This document shows positions 7,063-14,875 of a stretch of 37,317 nucleotides of DNA, one piece after another (the first letter of the stretch is position 1; each line of letters begins with the position of its first letter). The notes under the pieces were generated by a model. The model saw nothing but the letters and a program-made list of their open reading frames with translations, was not told where the DNA came from and did not search any database. The stretch is from Bacteroidota bacterium (GTDB taxonomy: Bacteria; Verrucomicrobiota; Verrucomicrobiia; Methylacidiphilales; UBA1321). The stretch is from positions 1-37,317 of the forward strand of contig CAJCII010000123.1 in the NCBI GenBank assembly GCA_903970335.1. The letters are read 5' to 3'. Both the position numbers and the translations under genes were made by a program.

Positions 7063-9114
7063 TCAAATCTTCGGCTCCCGCTTCCGCCCCGCCCCCCGGC
7101 CCGCCTTCGGGTAGGTCACCGGTTTGGCCCTCGGCTCGATCTTGGTCAGCCCGGCCTGCTGCTTCAGCTCCATGATCTGGTCCCGGAGGAGGGCGGCCTT
7201 CTCGTAGTGCATGGCGGCGGAGGCGGCCAGCATCTCGGTCTCCAGCTCCTGGAGGACCTGCATGATGTCCATGTCGGGCGTGGCCTCGCCCACCACCCCC
7301 GCCGCGATCTGCCGGCCCTTCATCAGGCTGCCCAGGCTCTCCTGCACCGCCCGCACCACCGAGCGCGGGGTGATCCCATGCTCCGTGTTGTAGGCCATCT
7401 GCTTTTCCCGCCGGGCCTTGCTGATGGCGATGAGGTTGCGGATGGAGTCGGTGATTTTATCGGCGTAGAGGATGACGAGGCCGTTGAGGTGGCGGGCGGC
7501 GCGGCCCGCGGTCTGGATCAGGGAGGTCTGGGAGCGGAGGAAGCCCTCCTTGTCGGCGTCGAGGACGGCGACGAGGGAGACCTCGGGGAGGTCGAGGCCC
7601 TCGCGGAGGAGGTTGATGCCGATGAGGACATCGACCTCGCCGGTGCGGAGGCTGCGGAGGATTTCGACGCGCTCGATGGTGTCGATTTCCGAGTGGATGT
7701 AGCGGACCTTGATGCCGAGGTCGCGGAGGTAATCGGCAAGGTCCTCGGCGGTGCGCTTGGTGAGGGTGGTGACGAGGACGCGCTGGCCCTGCTCGACGCG
7801 GAGACGGGCCTGAGCGAGGAGGTCGTCGACCTGACCCGTGAGGGGCTTGACGACGATTTCGGGGTCGAGGAGTCCGGTGGGGCGGATGATCTGCTCGGCA
7901 CTGATGCCGCCGGCCTGCTCGACTTCGTATTTGGATGGCGTGGCGGAGACGTAGAGGCGCGGGCCGGTGAGGGCATCGAACTCGTCGAACTTGAGCGGGC
8001 GGTTGTCGAGGGCGGAGGGAAGCCGGAAGCCATGCTCGACGAGGACCATTTTGCGGGAGCGGTCGCCTTCGTACATGCCGCCGATCTGGGGGATCGCGAC
8101 GTGGGACTCGTCGACGATGGTGAGGAAGTCGCTGGGAAAAAAGTCGATGAGCGTGTAGGGCCGCGAGCCGGGCGGGCGTCCGCTGGTATGGCGTGAGTAG
8201 TTCTCGATGCCGTTGCAGTAGCCCATCTCCTCCATCATTTCGAGGTCGAAGGTGGTGCGCATTTTGAGCCGCTGGGCCTCAAGGAGTTTGCCCTGCTTTT
8301 CCAGCTCGGCGACGCGTTCGTCGAGTTCCTTCCGGATGGTGCCCATGGCGATGCGCATCTTGTCGGCGGGGGTGACGTAGTGCCGCGCGGCGAAGAAGGT
8401 GATCTGGTCGAGCGTTTCCTGGTTCTCCCCGCTGATGGGATCGAAGCGGGTGACGCGGTCGACCTCGTCGCCGAAGAACTCGACGCGCACGGCGTCCTCG
8501 GTGTAGGCGGGGCAAAGCTCGACGGTGTCGCCGCGGACACGGAACTTGCCGCGGGTGAGCTGGAAGTCGTTGCGCTCGTACTGCATTTCAACGAGGCGGG
8601 CGAGGAAGGCCTCGCGGGTGAGGAACTGGCCCTTGGCGACGGGGCAAACCATATCTTTGTAGTCCTCGGGCGAACCCAAACCGTAGATGCAGGAGACGCT
8701 GGCGACGACGAGGACATCGCGGCGGGTGAGGAGGGCGGCGCTGGCGGCAAGGCGGAGGCGCTCGATTTCCTCGTTGATGCTGGAGTCCTTTTCGATGTAG
8801 GTATCGCTGCGCGGGATGTAGGCCTCGGGCTGATAGTAGTCGAAGTAGGAGACGAAATACTCGACGGCGTTTTCTGGGAAGAATTGCTTGAACTCGCTGT
8901 AGAGCTGCGCGGCGAGCGTTTTGTTATGGGAGAGAATGAGGGTGGGGCGGTCCAGCGCGGCGATGACGTTGGCCATGGTGTAGGTCTTGCCGGAACCGGT
9001 GACGCCGAGGAGCACGGAATGTTTTTCGCCGGAGCGCAGGCGTTTGAGCAATTTTTCGATGGCCTGCGGTTGGTCCCCCATGGGCGGGAAGGGGGAATGG
9101 AGCTTGAACGACAT
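7063..9114 (-). CDS. uvrB: UvrABC system protein B
   Basis: The DNA-damage verification helicase of nucleotide excision repair, working with UvrA and UvrC. At 683 residues it has the family length. Walker A is GVTGSGKT (37-44); the damage-probing β-hairpin lies in YYQPEAYIPRSDTYIEKDSSINEE; the Walker B region has DESH; helicase motif VI carries QTAGRAARHLNG; and the C-terminal UVR domain (LQELETEMLAASAAMHYEKAA) binds UvrC. The ATG at 9114 gives the family N-terminus FKLHSPFPPMGDQP. It is divergent from aguB, with a 114-base gap. The GC-rich, G-ending codon pattern differs slightly from leuS but matches the following genes. Confidence 0.98.
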   Translation of the reverse strand: MSFKLHSPFPPMGDQPQAIEKLLKRLRSGEKHSVLLGVTGSGKTYTMANVIAALDRPTLILSHNKTLAAQLYSEFKQFFPENAVEYFVSYFDYYQPEAYIPRSDTYIEKDSSINEEIERLRLAASAALLTRRDVLVVASVSCIYGLGSPEDYKDMVCPVAKGQFLTREAFLARLVEMQYERNDFQLTRGKFRVRGDTVELCPAYTEDAVRVEFFGDEVDRVTRFDPISGENQETLDQITFFAARHYVTPADKMRIAMGTIRKELDERVAELEKQGKLLEAQRLKMRTTFDLEMMEEMGYCNGIENYSRHTSGRPPGSRPYTLIDFFPSDFLTIVDESHVAIPQIGGMYEGDRSRKMVLVEHGFRLPSALDNRPLKFDEFDALTGPRLYVSATPSKYEVEQAGGISAEQIIRPTGLLDPEIVVKPLTGQVDDLLAQARLRVEQGQRVLVTTLTKRTAEDLADYLRDLGIKVRYIHSEIDTIERVEILRSLRTGEVDVLIGINLLREGLDLPEVSLVAVLDADKEGFLRSQTSLIQTAGRAARHLNGLVILYADKITDSIRNLIAISKARREKQMAYNTEHGITPRSVVRAVQESLGSLMKGRQIAAGVVGEATPDMDIMQVLQELETEMLAASAAMHYEKAALLRDQIMELKQQAGLTKIEPRAKPVTYPKAGRGAGRKREPKI

Positions 9115-9228
9115 CCGATGAATCTAAACCGGAAACGGGAGATGAAAAGCGTGGGGCGTTATTTCTGGCGAAGGTCTTTCGCGTCGGGCTTTGCCAAAAG
9201 AAAAATTGGTCCTAAGATAAATCTCACC

Positions 9229-10119
9229 ATGTCCGCATCCAAAAAAATCAAACTGGGCCTGCTCCAGACTTGGGCCGATGCCGATCCGGTTTCCAATCTG
9301 AAACGGACGCTGCAACTCGCCCATGCCGCGGCGGACCGGGGCGCGCAGATCATCTCGACGCAGGAGCTTTTTCGTTCCCAGTATTTTTGCCAGAGCGAGG
9401 ACCACGCCCATTTTGCCTTGGCCGAAGAAATTCCGGCGGGACCGAGCACCGAGGCTTTTTGCGAATTCGCCAAGGCGCGTGGGGTGGTGGTGGTCGCTTC
9501 GCTGTTCGAGCGGCGCATGGCGGGGGTCTATCACAACACGGCGGCGGTGATCGATGCCGACGGCACCTACCTCGGCAAGTACCGGAAGATGCACATTCCC
9601 GACGATCCGCTTTTCTACGAGAAGTTCTACTTCACGCCGGGCGATCTCGGTTTCCGCGCCTGGGACACCCGCTTCGGGCGGATCGGCGTGCTCATCTGCT
9701 GGGACCAGTGGTTTCCCGAGGCGGCACGGCTGACCTCGATGGCCGGGGCGCAGATTCTTTTTTACCCGACGGCGATCGGTTGGCATCCGAGCGAACGCGA
9801 GAAGTACGGCGAGGCGCACCACTCGTCGTGGGAGACGATCCAGCGGTCGCACGCGGTGGCGAATGGTTGTTACGTGGCGGTGACGAATCGCGTAGGACTG
9901 GAGCAACCCATCGGCGGGGACGGGATCAAGTTCTGGGGTCAAAGCTTCATCGCGAATACGTCGGGGCAGATTGTGGCAAAGGCCGGAGTAGAAAAGGAAG
10001 AGGTGCTGGTGCAGGAGATCGATCTCGCCACGGTGGATGTCACGCGCACGCACTGGCCGTTTCTGCGCGACCGGCGGATCGATGCCTATGGCGATTTGAC
10101 CAAGCGGCTGATCGATTGA
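9229..10119 (+). CDS. aguB: N-carbamoylputrescine amidase
   Basis: A nitrilase-superfamily hydrolase that converts N-carbamoylputrescine to putrescine, CO2 and ammonia, the last step of the agmatine route to putrescine. It has 296 residues. The catalytic triad is visible: Glu46 (STQELF), Lys120 (YRKMHIPDDP) and Cys157 (LICWDQWFPE). The segment PTAIGWHPSE and the HSSWETIQRSHAVANG block are typical of the AguB branch. The ATG at 9229 is followed by the lysine-rich SASKKIKLGLLQT. It lies 12 bases upstream of aguA, so the two form an operon that performs consecutive reactions. Strong identification. Confidence 0.96.
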   Translation: MSASKKIKLGLLQTWADADPVSNLKRTLQLAHAAADRGAQIISTQELFRSQYFCQSEDHAHFALAEEIPAGPSTEAFCEFAKARGVVVVASLFERRMAGVYHNTAAVIDADGTYLGKYRKMHIPDDPLFYEKFYFTPGDLGFRAWDTRFGRIGVLICWDQWFPEAARLTSMAGAQILFYPTAIGWHPSEREKYGEAHHSSWETIQRSHAVANGCYVAVTNRVGLEQPIGGDGIKFWGQSFIANTSGQIVAKAGVEKEEVLVQEIDLATVDVTRTHWPFLRDRRIDAYGDLTKRLID

Positions 10120-10131
10120 GATGTCCCGATC

Positions 10132-11196
10132 ATGAGCGCGATTATCAGCGACACAACCGTTACGCCCCGCTCGCTCGGTTTCCGGATGCCTGCGGAGTGG
10201 GCGCGACACGACGCCACCTGGCTGACGTGGCCGAGGCCCGAGGGCATTAGTTTTCCCGAGGCGTTCGACGCGATTCCGCCGCTGTGGGCCGGACTGGCGA
10301 AGCTGCTGGCCGAGGGCGAGCATGTCCACATCAACGTCTTTTCGCCCGAGCACGAAGTCGGAATCGTCGCCGCGTTGAAGAAGGCGGACGCTCCGCTCGG
10401 GACACGCATCCATCTACACCCGTTCCCCGCCTACGAGCCGTGGTGTCGCGATCACGGTCCCATCTTTGTGCGGAACGACCGGGAGGTGGCGGTGGTCGAC
10501 TGGCGTTACAACGCGTGGGGCGGGAAGTATCCGCCGTGCGATCTCGACGACGAGGTGCCGCAGCATGTCGCGCACCTTTTCGGGCTACGTCTTTTCTCGC
10601 CGCCGATGATTCTCGAGGGCGGTTCCATCGAAGTGAACGGCGAGGGGACGCTGGTCACAACCGAGGCGTGTCTGCTGAACAAGAATCGCAACCCGAACCT
10701 GAGCCGCGAGGAGATCGAGGCCTATCTGCGCGATTACCTGGGCGTGGAGCAGATTCTGTGGCTGGGCGAAGGGATCGTGGGCGACGATACGGACGGGCAC
10801 ATCGACGACCTCACGCGGTTCGTCGAGGCGACCACGCTGGTAACGATTGTCGAGGAGGATCCCGCCGACGAGAATTACGCCTTGCTGCAAGAGAACAGCG
10901 AACGGCTGGCGGCGATGCGCGATCCGCAGGGGCAGCCCTGGCGGGTGGTCGATCTGCCGACGCCTGGATATATCGAGAAGGATGGTCAGCGGTTGCCAGC
11001 GAGCTACGCGAATTTCTACATCGCCAACGAGGTGGTGGTGATGCCCGGGTTCGGTCATCCCAACGACGCGAAGGCGCGCGAGATTTTACAGGGCCTTTTT
11101 CCGACGCGGCGCGTGGTGCTCTGGCCCGCGCTGGATTTGATCTGGGGCCTCGGCGCGTTTCACTGCATCACGCAACAGCAGCCGGGGCTGAACTGA
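10132..11196 (+). CDS. aguA: Agmatine deiminase
   Basis: A guanidino-group-modifying enzyme that turns agmatine into N-carbamoylputrescine and ammonia, the substrate of the aguB product just upstream. The 354-residue protein starts with the conserved RMPAEWARHDATWLTWP. It has RDHGPIFV with the substrate acidic residue, LEGGSIEVNGEGTLVTT, the GDDTDGHIDDLTRFV motif with the catalytic Asp/His, and the C-terminal nucleophile Cys345 in GAFHCITQQQP. It follows aguB by 12 bases. The putrescine pathway here therefore probably starts from arginine via agmatine; no arginine decarboxylase gene lies in the window. Confidence 0.96.
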   Translation: MSAIISDTTVTPRSLGFRMPAEWARHDATWLTWPRPEGISFPEAFDAIPPLWAGLAKLLAEGEHVHINVFSPEHEVGIVAALKKADAPLGTRIHLHPFPAYEPWCRDHGPIFVRNDREVAVVDWRYNAWGGKYPPCDLDDEVPQHVAHLFGLRLFSPPMILEGGSIEVNGEGTLVTTEACLLNKNRNPNLSREEIEAYLRDYLGVEQILWLGEGIVGDDTDGHIDDLTRFVEATTLVTIVEEDPADENYALLQENSERLAAMRDPQGQPWRVVDLPTPGYIEKDGQRLPASYANFYIANEVVVMPGFGHPNDAKAREILQGLFPTRRVVLWPALDLIWGLGAFHCITQQQPGLN

Positions 11197-11364: not shown

Positions 11365-12624
11365 ATGCGCTGGCTGCTGACATCGTGGGGATCGCAGGGC
11401 GACCTGCATCCGTTCCTGGCGCTGGGGCGCGGGCTGGTGGTGCGCGGACATGGCGTGACGCTGGTGGGGCATCCTGAGTGGCGGGCGGAAACGGAGCGGG
11501 CGGGCCTGCGCTTCGTCTCGACCGGCGAGCCGTTGCGCGAGGACCTGATCCAGAAATATCCGGAGGTCCTGTCGATGAAGTGGGGCGGGCTGGTTTCCCT
11601 GCACACGCTGGTGCATCGGGCAATCGCGCCGGGCTTTGCGGGTGTCTTGGCGGCTTTGCGGGCCGAGGCGCCGCAGCACGATGCGATGCTGGCGCATCAC
11701 TTCACGTTTCCCGCGCCGATGGCGGCGGAATTGAGCGGGATTCCGTGGGGGACGATCAGCCTGGCTCCGGGGGTGGTGCCGTCGGCGTACGCATTGCCGG
11801 GCTCTCATTTTGGACGGACAAGAAGTGGCGTGTCCGGGCGAACCTGGAACCGGTTCGTCTGGTTCATGGGGCAACGAATCACACGCCGGGTGGTCGATCC
11901 GGTGGTGAATCGATTGCGTCGGGAGCAGGGCCTGAAGCCGATTCGCGATGCGGTTTTCGAGGCCCATTCATCCCTCCTGAATCTTCAACTCTACAGCGAG
12001 CATTTCGCGCCGCGTCCGCCGGACTGGAGCCGGGAAAAGCGGCTGACGGGTTTTTGCTTTTACGATCCGCCCGGAGCGACGCTACCACGGGAGGTGGAGA
12101 AATTTCTGGCGTCCGGGGAACCGCCGGTGCTGGTGACGCTGGGCTCGACGGCGGTGCAAATTCCGGGGCGGCTGTACGAAAGCGCGGCGGAGGCGCTGGA
12201 AGGACTGGGGTTGCGGGGCATCCTGCTGATCGGCCCGGAAAAGAATCGACCGGCGCATTTGCCGGAAACGATCCTGGCGACCGCCTACGCGCCGTACGGG
12301 CTCCTCATGCCGCGGGTGCGCGCCGTGGTGCATCAATGCGGGATCGGCACGCTGTCCCACACCTTGCGCGCGGGGGTGCCGTCGTTGGCCTGTCCGTTTG
12401 CTTTCGACCAGCCGAACAATGCGCGACGGATCGAGGCGCTCGGCGTGGCGGAGGTCACACTGCCGCAACGACGGTCGGCGCGGGAGCTCCGGCAGGCGCT
12501 GGAGAAGCTGCTGAGCGGTCGCGCCCCGGAAAAGGCGAAGCGGCTGGGCGAAGCGATCCGGGCCGAGGACGGCGTGGCGCGGGCGTGCGAGATTCTGGAG
12601 GAGACGTTCGCCGCCACCGGGTGA
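11365..12624 (+). CDS. Glycosyltransferase, GT1/UGT-like (MGT-type)
   Basis: A 419-residue GT-B fold glycosyltransferase of the nucleotide-sugar-dependent type that includes sterol, macrolide and rhamnolipid-like glycosyltransferases. The N-terminal acceptor domain starts with the glycine-rich TSWGSQGDLHPFLALGRGL and HGVTLVGHPEW. The C-terminal donor domain has VLVTLGSTAV, the APYGLLMPRVRAVVHQCGIGTLSHTLRAGVPSL signature split over about residues 311-345 and CPFAFDQPNNARRIEALGVA. No signal peptide is present, so it acts in the cytoplasm or at its membrane face. The acceptor cannot be deduced. It precedes a membrane-anchored phosphatase-fold protein by about 50 bases, suggesting cotranscription. 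The ATG at 11365 gives the family N-terminus; no clear Shine-Dalgarno. Confidence 0.88.
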   Translation: MRWLLTSWGSQGDLHPFLALGRGLVVRGHGVTLVGHPEWRAETERAGLRFVSTGEPLREDLIQKYPEVLSMKWGGLVSLHTLVHRAIAPGFAGVLAALRAEAPQHDAMLAHHFTFPAPMAAELSGIPWGTISLAPGVVPSAYALPGSHFGRTRSGVSGRTWNRFVWFMGQRITRRVVDPVVNRLRREQGLKPIRDAVFEAHSSLLNLQLYSEHFAPRPPDWSREKRLTGFCFYDPPGATLPREVEKFLASGEPPVLVTLGSTAVQIPGRLYESAAEALEGLGLRGILLIGPEKNRPAHLPETILATAYAPYGLLMPRVRAVVHQCGIGTLSHTLRAGVPSLACPFAFDQPNNARRIEALGVAEVTLPQRRSARELRQALEKLLSGRAPEKAKRLGEAIRAEDGVARACEILEETFAATG

Positions 12625-12672: not shown

Positions 12673-14067
12673 ATGAAATGGCGCATCGTCCTGACGACAG
12701 TTTTCGTGCTCACCTTATTTGGGGGCTTTGCCTACCTCTATGTAAATACGTTTGTGCGGAAGCATCAGCCCTCGGTCATACTGTTCGTCGTCGATGGCCT
12801 CGACTTGAATACGCTGAACCTGGCGCGGCAGCAGATGGGGCCGCGTCCGCAGCATGGGACGGAGCCGGACGATCCGCTCATCGAGGACGCGCGGCGGCGG
12901 GCGGCCTACCGGAACCAGATGTTGAACCTGGACTCGTTTTGGAACATCGCCCTGCTCAGCATTCAGGAACCGGGCCAGCCCGTGCCGGACGAAGGGGCCG
13001 ACGCCACGGCCCTGGCCTGCGGTCAGCGGGTGGCGAACGGTTATGTCTCGGTCAATAGCAGCAACGAGGCGCTGCGGTCGCTGATCTACGTGGCCGAACA
13101 ATCGCATCGCGCCACCGGGTTGGTGACGACGAGTTCGCTGATGCAGCCGACTCCGGTCGCTTTTTACTCAACGATCAATGGCACGCCGGAACCGTATCGC
13201 AACGCCAACGATCTGCTTTACTCGGGCATCGATGTCGTGATGGGCGGCGGCGAGCAGTATTTTACCCCGGCCAACGTGGGGAACGAACTGGGGCGGACGG
13301 ATGGGCACAACCTGCTCGACGAGGCGCAGAAGAGTCACGGCTACGTCGTGCTGCGGACGCGGGACGAATTGAACAAGGTTTCGACCTGGGGAGCGGGCAA
13401 GTTGCTCGGAGTTTTCGCACCCGACCAGTTTTATTACTCGTCTCTCCAACCGGTCGATCGGCGGCAACCCTCGCTGGCCGAGATGACCCGCGTGGCCATC
13501 TCGCGGCTCAACAACAATATCAATCCCTATTTCCTCGTGGTGGAGCATGGCCTGGTGGCGCGCGCGGCGGAACAGAATTTCGGGAAGCTCGCGGTGAACG
13601 AAGTGGCCGAGGTGGACGAGGCGATCCAGTCGGCGGTGGAGTACGCGGGGTCGGATGCGTTGGTCCTGGTGACGAACAGTTACAGTCTGGGCGCGATCAG
13701 TCCGCTGCCGCCGACCGCGCCGGGAGACCTGGTCGCCGCGCCGGCGACGGTCGATGCCGAGGGCAGGCCGGTGAGGTTCGTGGCCATTCCGATGGCACCA
13801 CCCGCTCCGCCTGCGTGGCTGGCCGGCCCGGGAGGTCCGGCGGTCACTCGTGTGCAGGCGACGTGGATACACGAACACGACCTGAACGCCTGGGCAAACG
13901 GAAATACCTCTGTTTTACTGATGGCCGATCCTGCGCTCCGCTTCCAGACGCGAGCCTTGCCCCTGGCGGAACCGGCCTGGCTGGCCTCGCGCGGGGAAGG
14001 GTCGAGTCAGTTGCGGGGATTCCTGAACAACACCGACGTGTTCGATATCATCTCCGAGCAGTTTTAG
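12673..14067 (+). CDS. Membrane-anchored alkaline-phosphatase-fold protein, probably catalytically dead
   Basis: A 464-residue protein with an N-terminal transmembrane helix (about 5-27); the rest is predicted outside the cytoplasmic membrane. The layout follows the PhoA family: VILFVVDGLD (Asp41, first metal ligand), DEGADATALACGQ, VTTSSLMQPTPVAFYS, VVEHGLVARAAEQNF, LVTNSYSLGA and a late HEHDLNAW. Against the PhoA pattern, the nucleophile position DSA reads DEG (Glu107), the Asp/His before TP is Gln, the D-x-x-x-H pair after VE is lost, and the TADHETGG pair reads TNSYSLGA. Only Asp41, the Thr, the Glu and a late His survive. I infer a pseudoenzyme with a binding role. A TTG at 12664 is an alternative start. 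It sits 10 bases upstream of ksgA. Confidence 0.75.
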   Translation: MKWRIVLTTVFVLTLFGGFAYLYVNTFVRKHQPSVILFVVDGLDLNTLNLARQQMGPRPQHGTEPDDPLIEDARRRAAYRNQMLNLDSFWNIALLSIQEPGQPVPDEGADATALACGQRVANGYVSVNSSNEALRSLIYVAEQSHRATGLVTTSSLMQPTPVAFYSTINGTPEPYRNANDLLYSGIDVVMGGGEQYFTPANVGNELGRTDGHNLLDEAQKSHGYVVLRTRDELNKVSTWGAGKLLGVFAPDQFYYSSLQPVDRRQPSLAEMTRVAISRLNNNINPYFLVVEHGLVARAAEQNFGKLAVNEVAEVDEAIQSAVEYAGSDALVLVTNSYSLGAISPLPPTAPGDLVAAPATVDAEGRPVRFVAIPMAPPAPPAWLAGPGGPAVTRVQATWIHEHDLNAWANGNTSVLLMADPALRFQTRALPLAEPAWLASRGEGSSQLRGFLNNTDVFDIISEQF

Positions 14068-14077
14068 GAATGGTGAG

Positions 14078-14875
14078 ATGACCTTGACCGAAATTCGCGC
14101 GGCGCTCGATTCGCGCGGCCTGCGTCCCCTGAAGCAACTGGGGCAGAATTTTCTGCACGATCAGAACCTGGCCCGATGGATCGCGGAACGCGCGGTGGAG
14201 GGAGTCGAGTCGGGCGCCACGGTGGTCGAGATCGGGCCGGGACTTGGCGCGCTGACGGAGTCCCTGGTCGGTGGCGATCTGAAGGTGATCGCGTTGGAGA
14301 AAGACCGAGGCTTGTGCGTCTTTTTGCGGGAGCGTTTTACGGCGGAGATTGCCGGAGGGGGATTCGATTTGCGCGAGGGCGATGCGCTGGAAATCCTGCC
14401 CAGGCTGGAAGTCGCCCCGGTGGTGGTGTGCGGGAACCTGCCCTATTACATTTCCACGCCGCTGCTGATGGAGTGCCTGCGTTTGCCGGGCCGTCCGGCG
14501 CGGTTGCTTTTCCTCGTGCAGAGGGAGGTCGGGCAACGGCTGGCCGGACTGCCGGGCAGCAAGACCTACGGCGCGCTCTCGGTGCTGGTGCAGGCGGTCT
14601 GTGAGGTCACGCAGGTGCGCACGCTGCCGGGGTCGGTTTTTTATCCGCCGCCGGAGGTCGAGTCGGTGCTGGTCCGGCTCACGCCGCGACTCGAGCCGCT
14701 GGTCGCCGTGGAGGAGCGGGTCGATTTTCTCGCCGTGGTGCAGCGCGGCTTTTCGCAGCGGCGCAAGAAGCTTTCCAACTTGCTGCCGATTTCCGATGGA
14801 CGTCGCGCGGAAGAGTTGAGTCCCGCCGAGTGGGTCGAGCTTTGGCGGGGGATGAAGACGGAGCCTACTTCCTGA
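14078..14875 (+). CDS. rsmA: 16S rRNA (adenine1518-N6/adenine1519-N6)-dimethyltransferase
   Basis: KsgA/RsmA dimethylates two adjacent adenosines in the 3' end loop of 16S rRNA using S-adenosylmethionine, a late 30S assembly checkpoint. It has 265 residues. Signatures are KQLGQNFLHDQNLA near the N-terminus, the SAM motif I VVEIGPGLGALTE, the acidic ribose-binding VIALEKDRGL, and motif IV NLPYYIS (Asn120 starts it). The C-terminal domain has FYPPPEVESVLVRL. The ATG at 14078 is 10 bases past the phosphatase-like gene stop. The 3' end overlaps the convergent pilT by 11 bases, so the two transcripts must read through or stop within coding sequence. Confidence 0.96.
   Translation: MTLTEIRAALDSRGLRPLKQLGQNFLHDQNLARWIAERAVEGVESGATVVEIGPGLGALTESLVGGDLKVIALEKDRGLCVFLRERFTAEIAGGGFDLREGDALEILPRLEVAPVVVCGNLPYYISTPLLMECLRLPGRPARLLFLVQREVGQRLAGLPGSKTYGALSVLVQAVCEVTQVRTLPGSVFYPPPEVESVLVRLTPRLEPLVAVEERVDFLAVVQRGFSQRRKKLSNLLPISDGRRAEELSPAEWVELWRGMKTEPTS

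Follow-up and report, generated by a model that had tools for sequence, protein, structure and literature searches.

A family of membrane-anchored, probably non-catalytic PhoA-type alkaline phosphatase relatives in Verrucomicrobia

Results

The pAP locus and the anchored protein

The window, which here means the whole 37,317-nucleotide stretch of DNA that was analyzed, comes from a draft genome (2.88 Mb, 243 contigs). At its center of interest is an open reading frame for a pseudo-alkaline phosphatase (pAP). Its coordinates, strand, and neighbors were re-derived and agree with the original prediction for this DNA:

11365-12624, + strand, UDP-glycosyltransferase-like gene upstream of pAP (Pfam; synteny)
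12673-14067, + strand, pAP, 464 amino acids (open reading frame; PF00245 at 149 bits; matches to alkaline phosphatases in the PDB)
14078-14875, + strand, rsmA, 10 bases downstream of pAP (Pfam RrnaAD; synteny)

Farther upstream on the same strand (8380-11196), an open reading frame with C-terminal carbon-nitrogen-hydrolase-like sequence (within 8380-10119) adjoins a PAD_porph/agmatine-deiminase-type gene (10132-11196). The two look like a polyamine gene pair for the conversion of agmatine to putrescine.

PF00245 is the sole Pfam match of the window protein (149 bits, E = 2.5e-43, against a Pfam cutoff of 24.4), and sequence comparison with solved alkaline phosphatases gives E = 7.8e-22. These matches put the resemblance far beyond chance and bear out the claim that the protein is an alkaline phosphatase relative. 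It belongs over the whole domain to the same family as the Vibrio alkaline phosphatase (3e2d), E. coli PhoA, and human TNAP, with which it has a C-terminal G-x-G-x(5)-G-F-x-(D/N)-N-T segment and a GGG motif in common. Related proteins of the same degenerate type, described below, matched PF00245 in 37 of 37 cases tested. The window protein scores 71.4 bits against the NCBIfam PhoA equivalog model NF007810, below its cutoff of 540; L025, an intact relative, scores 169. Since the profile alignment covers the whole alkaline phosphatase domain, pAP is predicted to keep the alkaline phosphatase fold. AlphaFold2, run on four sequences only, gave a mean pLDDT of 33.8.

The predicted membrane anchor is also present:

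12685-12741, + strand, N-terminal signal anchor, residues 5-23, following MKWR and expected to lie N-in, C-out (hydropathy 1.95; no cleavage-like AxA motif; F16 invariant in 55 members)

This is the one hydrophobic segment of the window protein, as the best other 19-mer averages only 0.98. The same layout recurs in all 37 members scanned, each with one to four Lys/Arg residues followed by a hydrophobic segment of 19 residues (mean hydropathy 1.9-3.0); a cleavage-like motif is absent from them, bar one chance AxA. L025, the nearest intact relative, begins with a secreted-type leader rather than the anchor. Under the positive-inside rule, the pAP domain is expected on the periplasmic side of the membrane. 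Known PhoA-type enzymes are likewise periplasmic or extracellular.

Active-site positions

Eleven catalytic positions were located by aligning the protein with its relatives and with enzymes of known structure. They carry the numbering of E. coli PhoA:

12793-12795, + strand, D41, equivalent to D51 and kept in the window; D, E, N, or P across the pAP family (alignments)
12991-12993, + strand, E107, aligned with the Ser102 nucleophile (alignments)
13144-13152, + strand, Q158-P159-T160, in which D/H153 is lost (Q158) and T155 is kept (T160) (alignments)
13183-13185, + strand, T171, aligned with the phosphate-binding R166; Arg never occurs here in the pAP family (alignments)
13543-13545, + strand, E291, equivalent to E322 and kept in the window; mostly D across the pAP family (alignments)
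13558-13572, + strand, A296 and E300, replacing the Zn1 ligands D327 and H331 (alignments)
13678-13683, + strand, S336-Y337, replacing the Zn2 ligands D369-H370 (alignments)
13960-13962, + strand, P430, replacing the Zn1 ligand H412 (alignments, including HMMER to human TNAP)

All three Zn1 ligands are gone from the window protein (A296, E300, P430), and one Zn2 ligand of three is left (D41, the others being S336 and Y337). The direct Mg-site ligands D41, T160, and E291 are all present. The alignments reproduce the originally predicted replacement of the nucleophilic Ser by Glu, that of the Asp/His before Thr-Pro by Gln, the loss of the D-x-x-x-H pair, and the reading of the Asp-His of TADHETGG as Ser-Tyr. 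The phosphate-binding Arg, now T171, is a further loss. It had also been proposed that Asp41, a Thr, a Glu, and a late His remain. The first three are D41, T160, and E291, but the His does not correspond to the H412 ligand. H402 and H404 (in IHEHD) sit in an unconserved stretch that varies even within the genus, and when HMMER aligns the family profile with human TNAP, the catalytic His of TNAP falls on the P430 column, where none of 55 dereplicated members has His.

A degenerate family within the class

Homologues are present in 58 of 98 genomes, comprising the window's own and its relatives, and they split into an intact and a degenerate set. The degenerate set forms one side of a branch with support of 100/99 (100/98 in a wider sample). 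It contains host families f1-f6, f8, and f9 of the window's order and f17, f21, f22, f26, f31, f33, f36, f41, f44, f55, and f63 from the rest of the class. Host families with several members each largely cluster together in the tree, which is the pattern expected for vertical descent. A profile search found a family-type match (at least 265 bits, counted from the profile listing) in 103 of 384 genomes of the class, and almost all of these matches start at the anchor. The best-scoring intact relatives, at about 297 bits to the family profile, are two further PhoA-type proteins from family f10 of the same class (L025 in G077 and L151 in G101), which are without the anchor. No match above 217 bits, and so no family-type match, occurs in the other classes of a 388-genome sample of the phylum; judged by score and coverage, the matches there look like ordinary relatives. 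The gene is absent from the genomes searched in genera g13 and g15 of f9, although absences in single genomes are weak because the host genomes are mostly draft MAGs. A search of the open-access literature found no paper that deals with this family or with any pseudo-alkaline phosphatase of the PhoA type.

The residues divide the homologues in the same way. At most 5 of the 11 catalytic residues are kept in any of 73 family members read, whereas each of the 25 intact relatives has at least 10: every one retains the ten positions other than 153, which is H, D, or G. Among 55 dereplicated members, position 102 is Ser in 10 and position 166 is Arg in none, and the Zn1 columns D327, H331, and H412 are kept in 2, 2, and 0. 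A D/E-T/S-D/E version of the Mg triplet (D51, T155, E322) occurs in about one-third of the 73 members; in most congeners of the window's host the triplet is broken by N41 or by Q/T at 291, and f2, f4, and f6 lack it. The degeneracy is old and shared across the family, and the tree and residues together show a single loss of the nucleophile, the phosphate-binding Arg, and both Zn sites in an ancestor inside the Verrucomicrobia class. The proposed check, whether the substitutions are conserved among homologues, comes out positive for the absence of the catalytic set but not for the substituting residues. These vary, and A, E, S, Q, T, D, P, G, and N all occur at position 102.

Gene neighborhood and copy number

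In f1, f2, f3, f4, f6, and f8 of the host order, rsmA lies 3' of pAP on the same strand, usually within 50 bases, and in f9 the two genes are convergent. A Ppx/GppA-type gene, usually together with an HD-domain gene, lies 5' of pAP in f2, f4, f6, and f8. A divergent gpmI gene is found upstream only in f17, f31, and f41 (L086, L122, L123, L124, L126, L134, L136, L142, L147, and L154); gpmI is itself an alkaline phosphatase superfamily member. The Ppx, HD, and gpmI identities were assigned by inspection of the sequences. Among the contexts read there is no class-wide functional operon: rsmA adjoins pAP only within the order, and the remaining loci have assorted housekeeping genes. Because no neighbor spans the class, the context indicates a stable chromosomal gene rather than a pathway.

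The placement of pAP between a glycosyltransferase gene and rsmA is correct for the window, but the glycosyltransferase is upstream in only five of seven same-genus contexts read and in no other family, apart from a distant opposite-strand homologue in one f8 locus. A functional link to the glycosyltransferase was rejected on this distribution.

As an observation on the upstream genes themselves, the Ppx/GppA-type gene and separate HD-domain gene upstream of pAP/rsmA in L089, L090, L091, L095-L098, L102, L103, and L158 resemble a split exopolyphosphatase.

Pseudoenzyme-enzyme pairs are a known mode of action, and six genomes (G009, G011, G012, G016, G075, and G091) carry an intact PhoA-type enzyme alongside pAP, so that pAP might be an allosteric or assembly subunit of such a paralogue. 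In 22 of 30 pAP-bearing genomes, however, near-complete ones included, pAP is the sole PF00245 protein, and the same is true of seven of seven genomes tested from the window's genus. Since pAP cannot merely be the partner of an intact PhoA in these genomes, regulation of such an enzyme was rejected as a general role, and the pairing explanation is very improbable.

Selection and conservation

The pAP gene is under purifying selection. Comparison of the window gene with its congeners gives dN/dS values of 0.10-0.24, and two close g3 genes give 0.04; the ratios are rough, as several dS values are near saturation. Missing catalytic residues in hosts that are mostly draft MAGs could also arise from a decaying pseudogene or a local annotation or assembly artifact. 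A pseudogene is contradicted by the open frames, free of internal stops, in the 103 family matches listed and by dN/dS values well below 1; with the fold residues and anchor conserved as well, explanations of this kind merit almost no credence. The proposal of a conserved pseudoenzyme finds strong support and reaches further than first suggested, to a monophyletic, vertically inherited, class-wide family under purifying selection.

Conservation is unevenly distributed over the domain. Mean entropy within the family is 2.52 bits at the former active-site positions versus 1.98 bits for the domain, a variability matched by 2.5% of random position sets. For the other residues invariant in intact enzymes, the mean entropy is 0.92 bits. 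The fold core has therefore been held and the pocket has not. The family conserves R146, Y165, R208, Y286, G326, and W382, all of which also occur in the intact proteins L025 and L151. These two differ from pAP in having all 11 catalytic residues, a secreted-type leader, no MKWR anchor, and no W239. The family's own conserved residues are F16 in the anchor, Y23, Y324, and W239. The two Trp positions are as follows:

13387-13389, + strand, W239, 87% conserved in the family; the intact relatives checked have no Trp here (alignments)
13816-13818, + strand, W382, 98% conserved in the family; common to the nearest intact relatives (alignments)

A new catalytic cluster was considered and rejected, as the strongly conserved polar residues checked (R4, R146, R208, N302, D315, Y165, and Y286) are all also present in intact L025.

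Some members at least might retain an altered activity, in which a remnant Mg-type site (D51, T155, and E/D322) and an acidic or otherwise substituted position 102 support other hydrolase or transferase chemistry. The retention of D41, T160, and E291 in the window protein and of similar triplets elsewhere in the family is consistent with this idea. A precedent exists in PbgA/YejM, whose inner-membrane-anchored periplasmic domain belongs to the alkaline phosphatase superfamily. It was described without typical catalytic residues (PMC7018646) and later reported to be a Mg-dependent phosphatase with a Thr nucleophile and bound metal (PMC7576196). The window protein lacks such a nucleophile and is not known to bind metal. 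Moreover, the family's triplet is broken in most of the window's genus and missing from whole host families, the Arg is gone throughout, the Zn sites are never complete, and the pocket positions are the variable ones. We consider residual catalysis unlikely, although some weak metal binding or chemistry may persist at D41/T160/E291 in the window protein and in the minority of members with a similar triplet.

The original prediction raised the possible binding of a phosphorylated glycan or lipid, and the old cleft might in principle still hold such a ligand or a nucleotide. The fold kept by profile, the anchored and probably periplasmic domain, and the glycosyltransferase gene upstream in the window would suit this role. 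The variability of the pocket relative to the rest of the domain argues against a kept phospho-ligand pocket; none of the 55 dereplicated members has the phosphate-binding Arg, and only part of one genus shows the glycosyltransferase association. Binding of this type is, in our judgment, somewhat less likely still than residual catalysis, and the claim is not upheld.

Discussion

The explanation that we consider probable is that pAP is a single-pass, inner-membrane-anchored, periplasmic pseudoenzyme of the PhoA-type family with a structural or regulatory role in the envelope. The tree, the residues, and the selection show that the nucleophile, the phosphate-binding Arg, and both Zn sites were lost once and that the descendants were kept as a single-copy housekeeping-like protein. 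The anchor would hold the alkaline-phosphatase-fold domain at the periplasmic face of the inner membrane. There pAP, most likely without phosphatase activity, would act by contacts with other proteins or with the membrane, serving some envelope process as scaffold or regulator, and the old pocket would have no part in this.

Compared with PhoA-type enzymes, the window protein is without the nucleophile, R166, and both Zn sites, and it has an uncleaved signal anchor. PbgA/YejM/LapC resembles pAP in being a membrane-anchored periplasmic domain of the same superfamily whose typical catalytic residues were described as missing (PMC7018646). That protein acts on LpxC proteolysis through LapB/FtsH. 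It has five transmembrane helices and a sulfatase-like domain (PMC7018646, PMC7576196), whereas pAP family members have one transmembrane segment and a PhoA-type domain, and the window protein lacks a nucleophile. The likeness is a loose analogy and pAP is not a member of that group. Because Mg-dependent activity was later reported for PbgA/YejM (PMC7576196), it also serves as a caution for our reading of pAP. A bolder version, which we advance only tentatively, is that pAP is an envelope protein found throughout its Verrucomicrobia class whose PhoA fold has permanently become a non-catalytic tethered scaffold or sensor. It would then be a PhoA-type equivalent of PbgA/YejM, in control of a conserved envelope process.

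Homology searches would label pAP proteins as alkaline phosphatases and lead to wrong inferences about phosphorus cycling from Verrucomicrobia genomes and metagenomes, when the proteins so annotated probably serve the cell envelope in some other way. Should the role prove non-catalytic, the family would be a clean case of a PhoA-type pseudoenzyme that is class-wide and has intact sister proteins for comparison, and it would point to an undescribed envelope function.

A second PhoA-type variant was encountered in the same class (L064 in G092:C15, L065 in G037:C32, L066 in G042:C40, and L068 in G015:C64). These proteins keep the Ser nucleophile, R166, E322, and all Asp ligands, have H331 replaced by N, H370 by S, and position 153 by E, and show no clear H412. 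This variant is possibly a His-poor enzyme that uses another metal.
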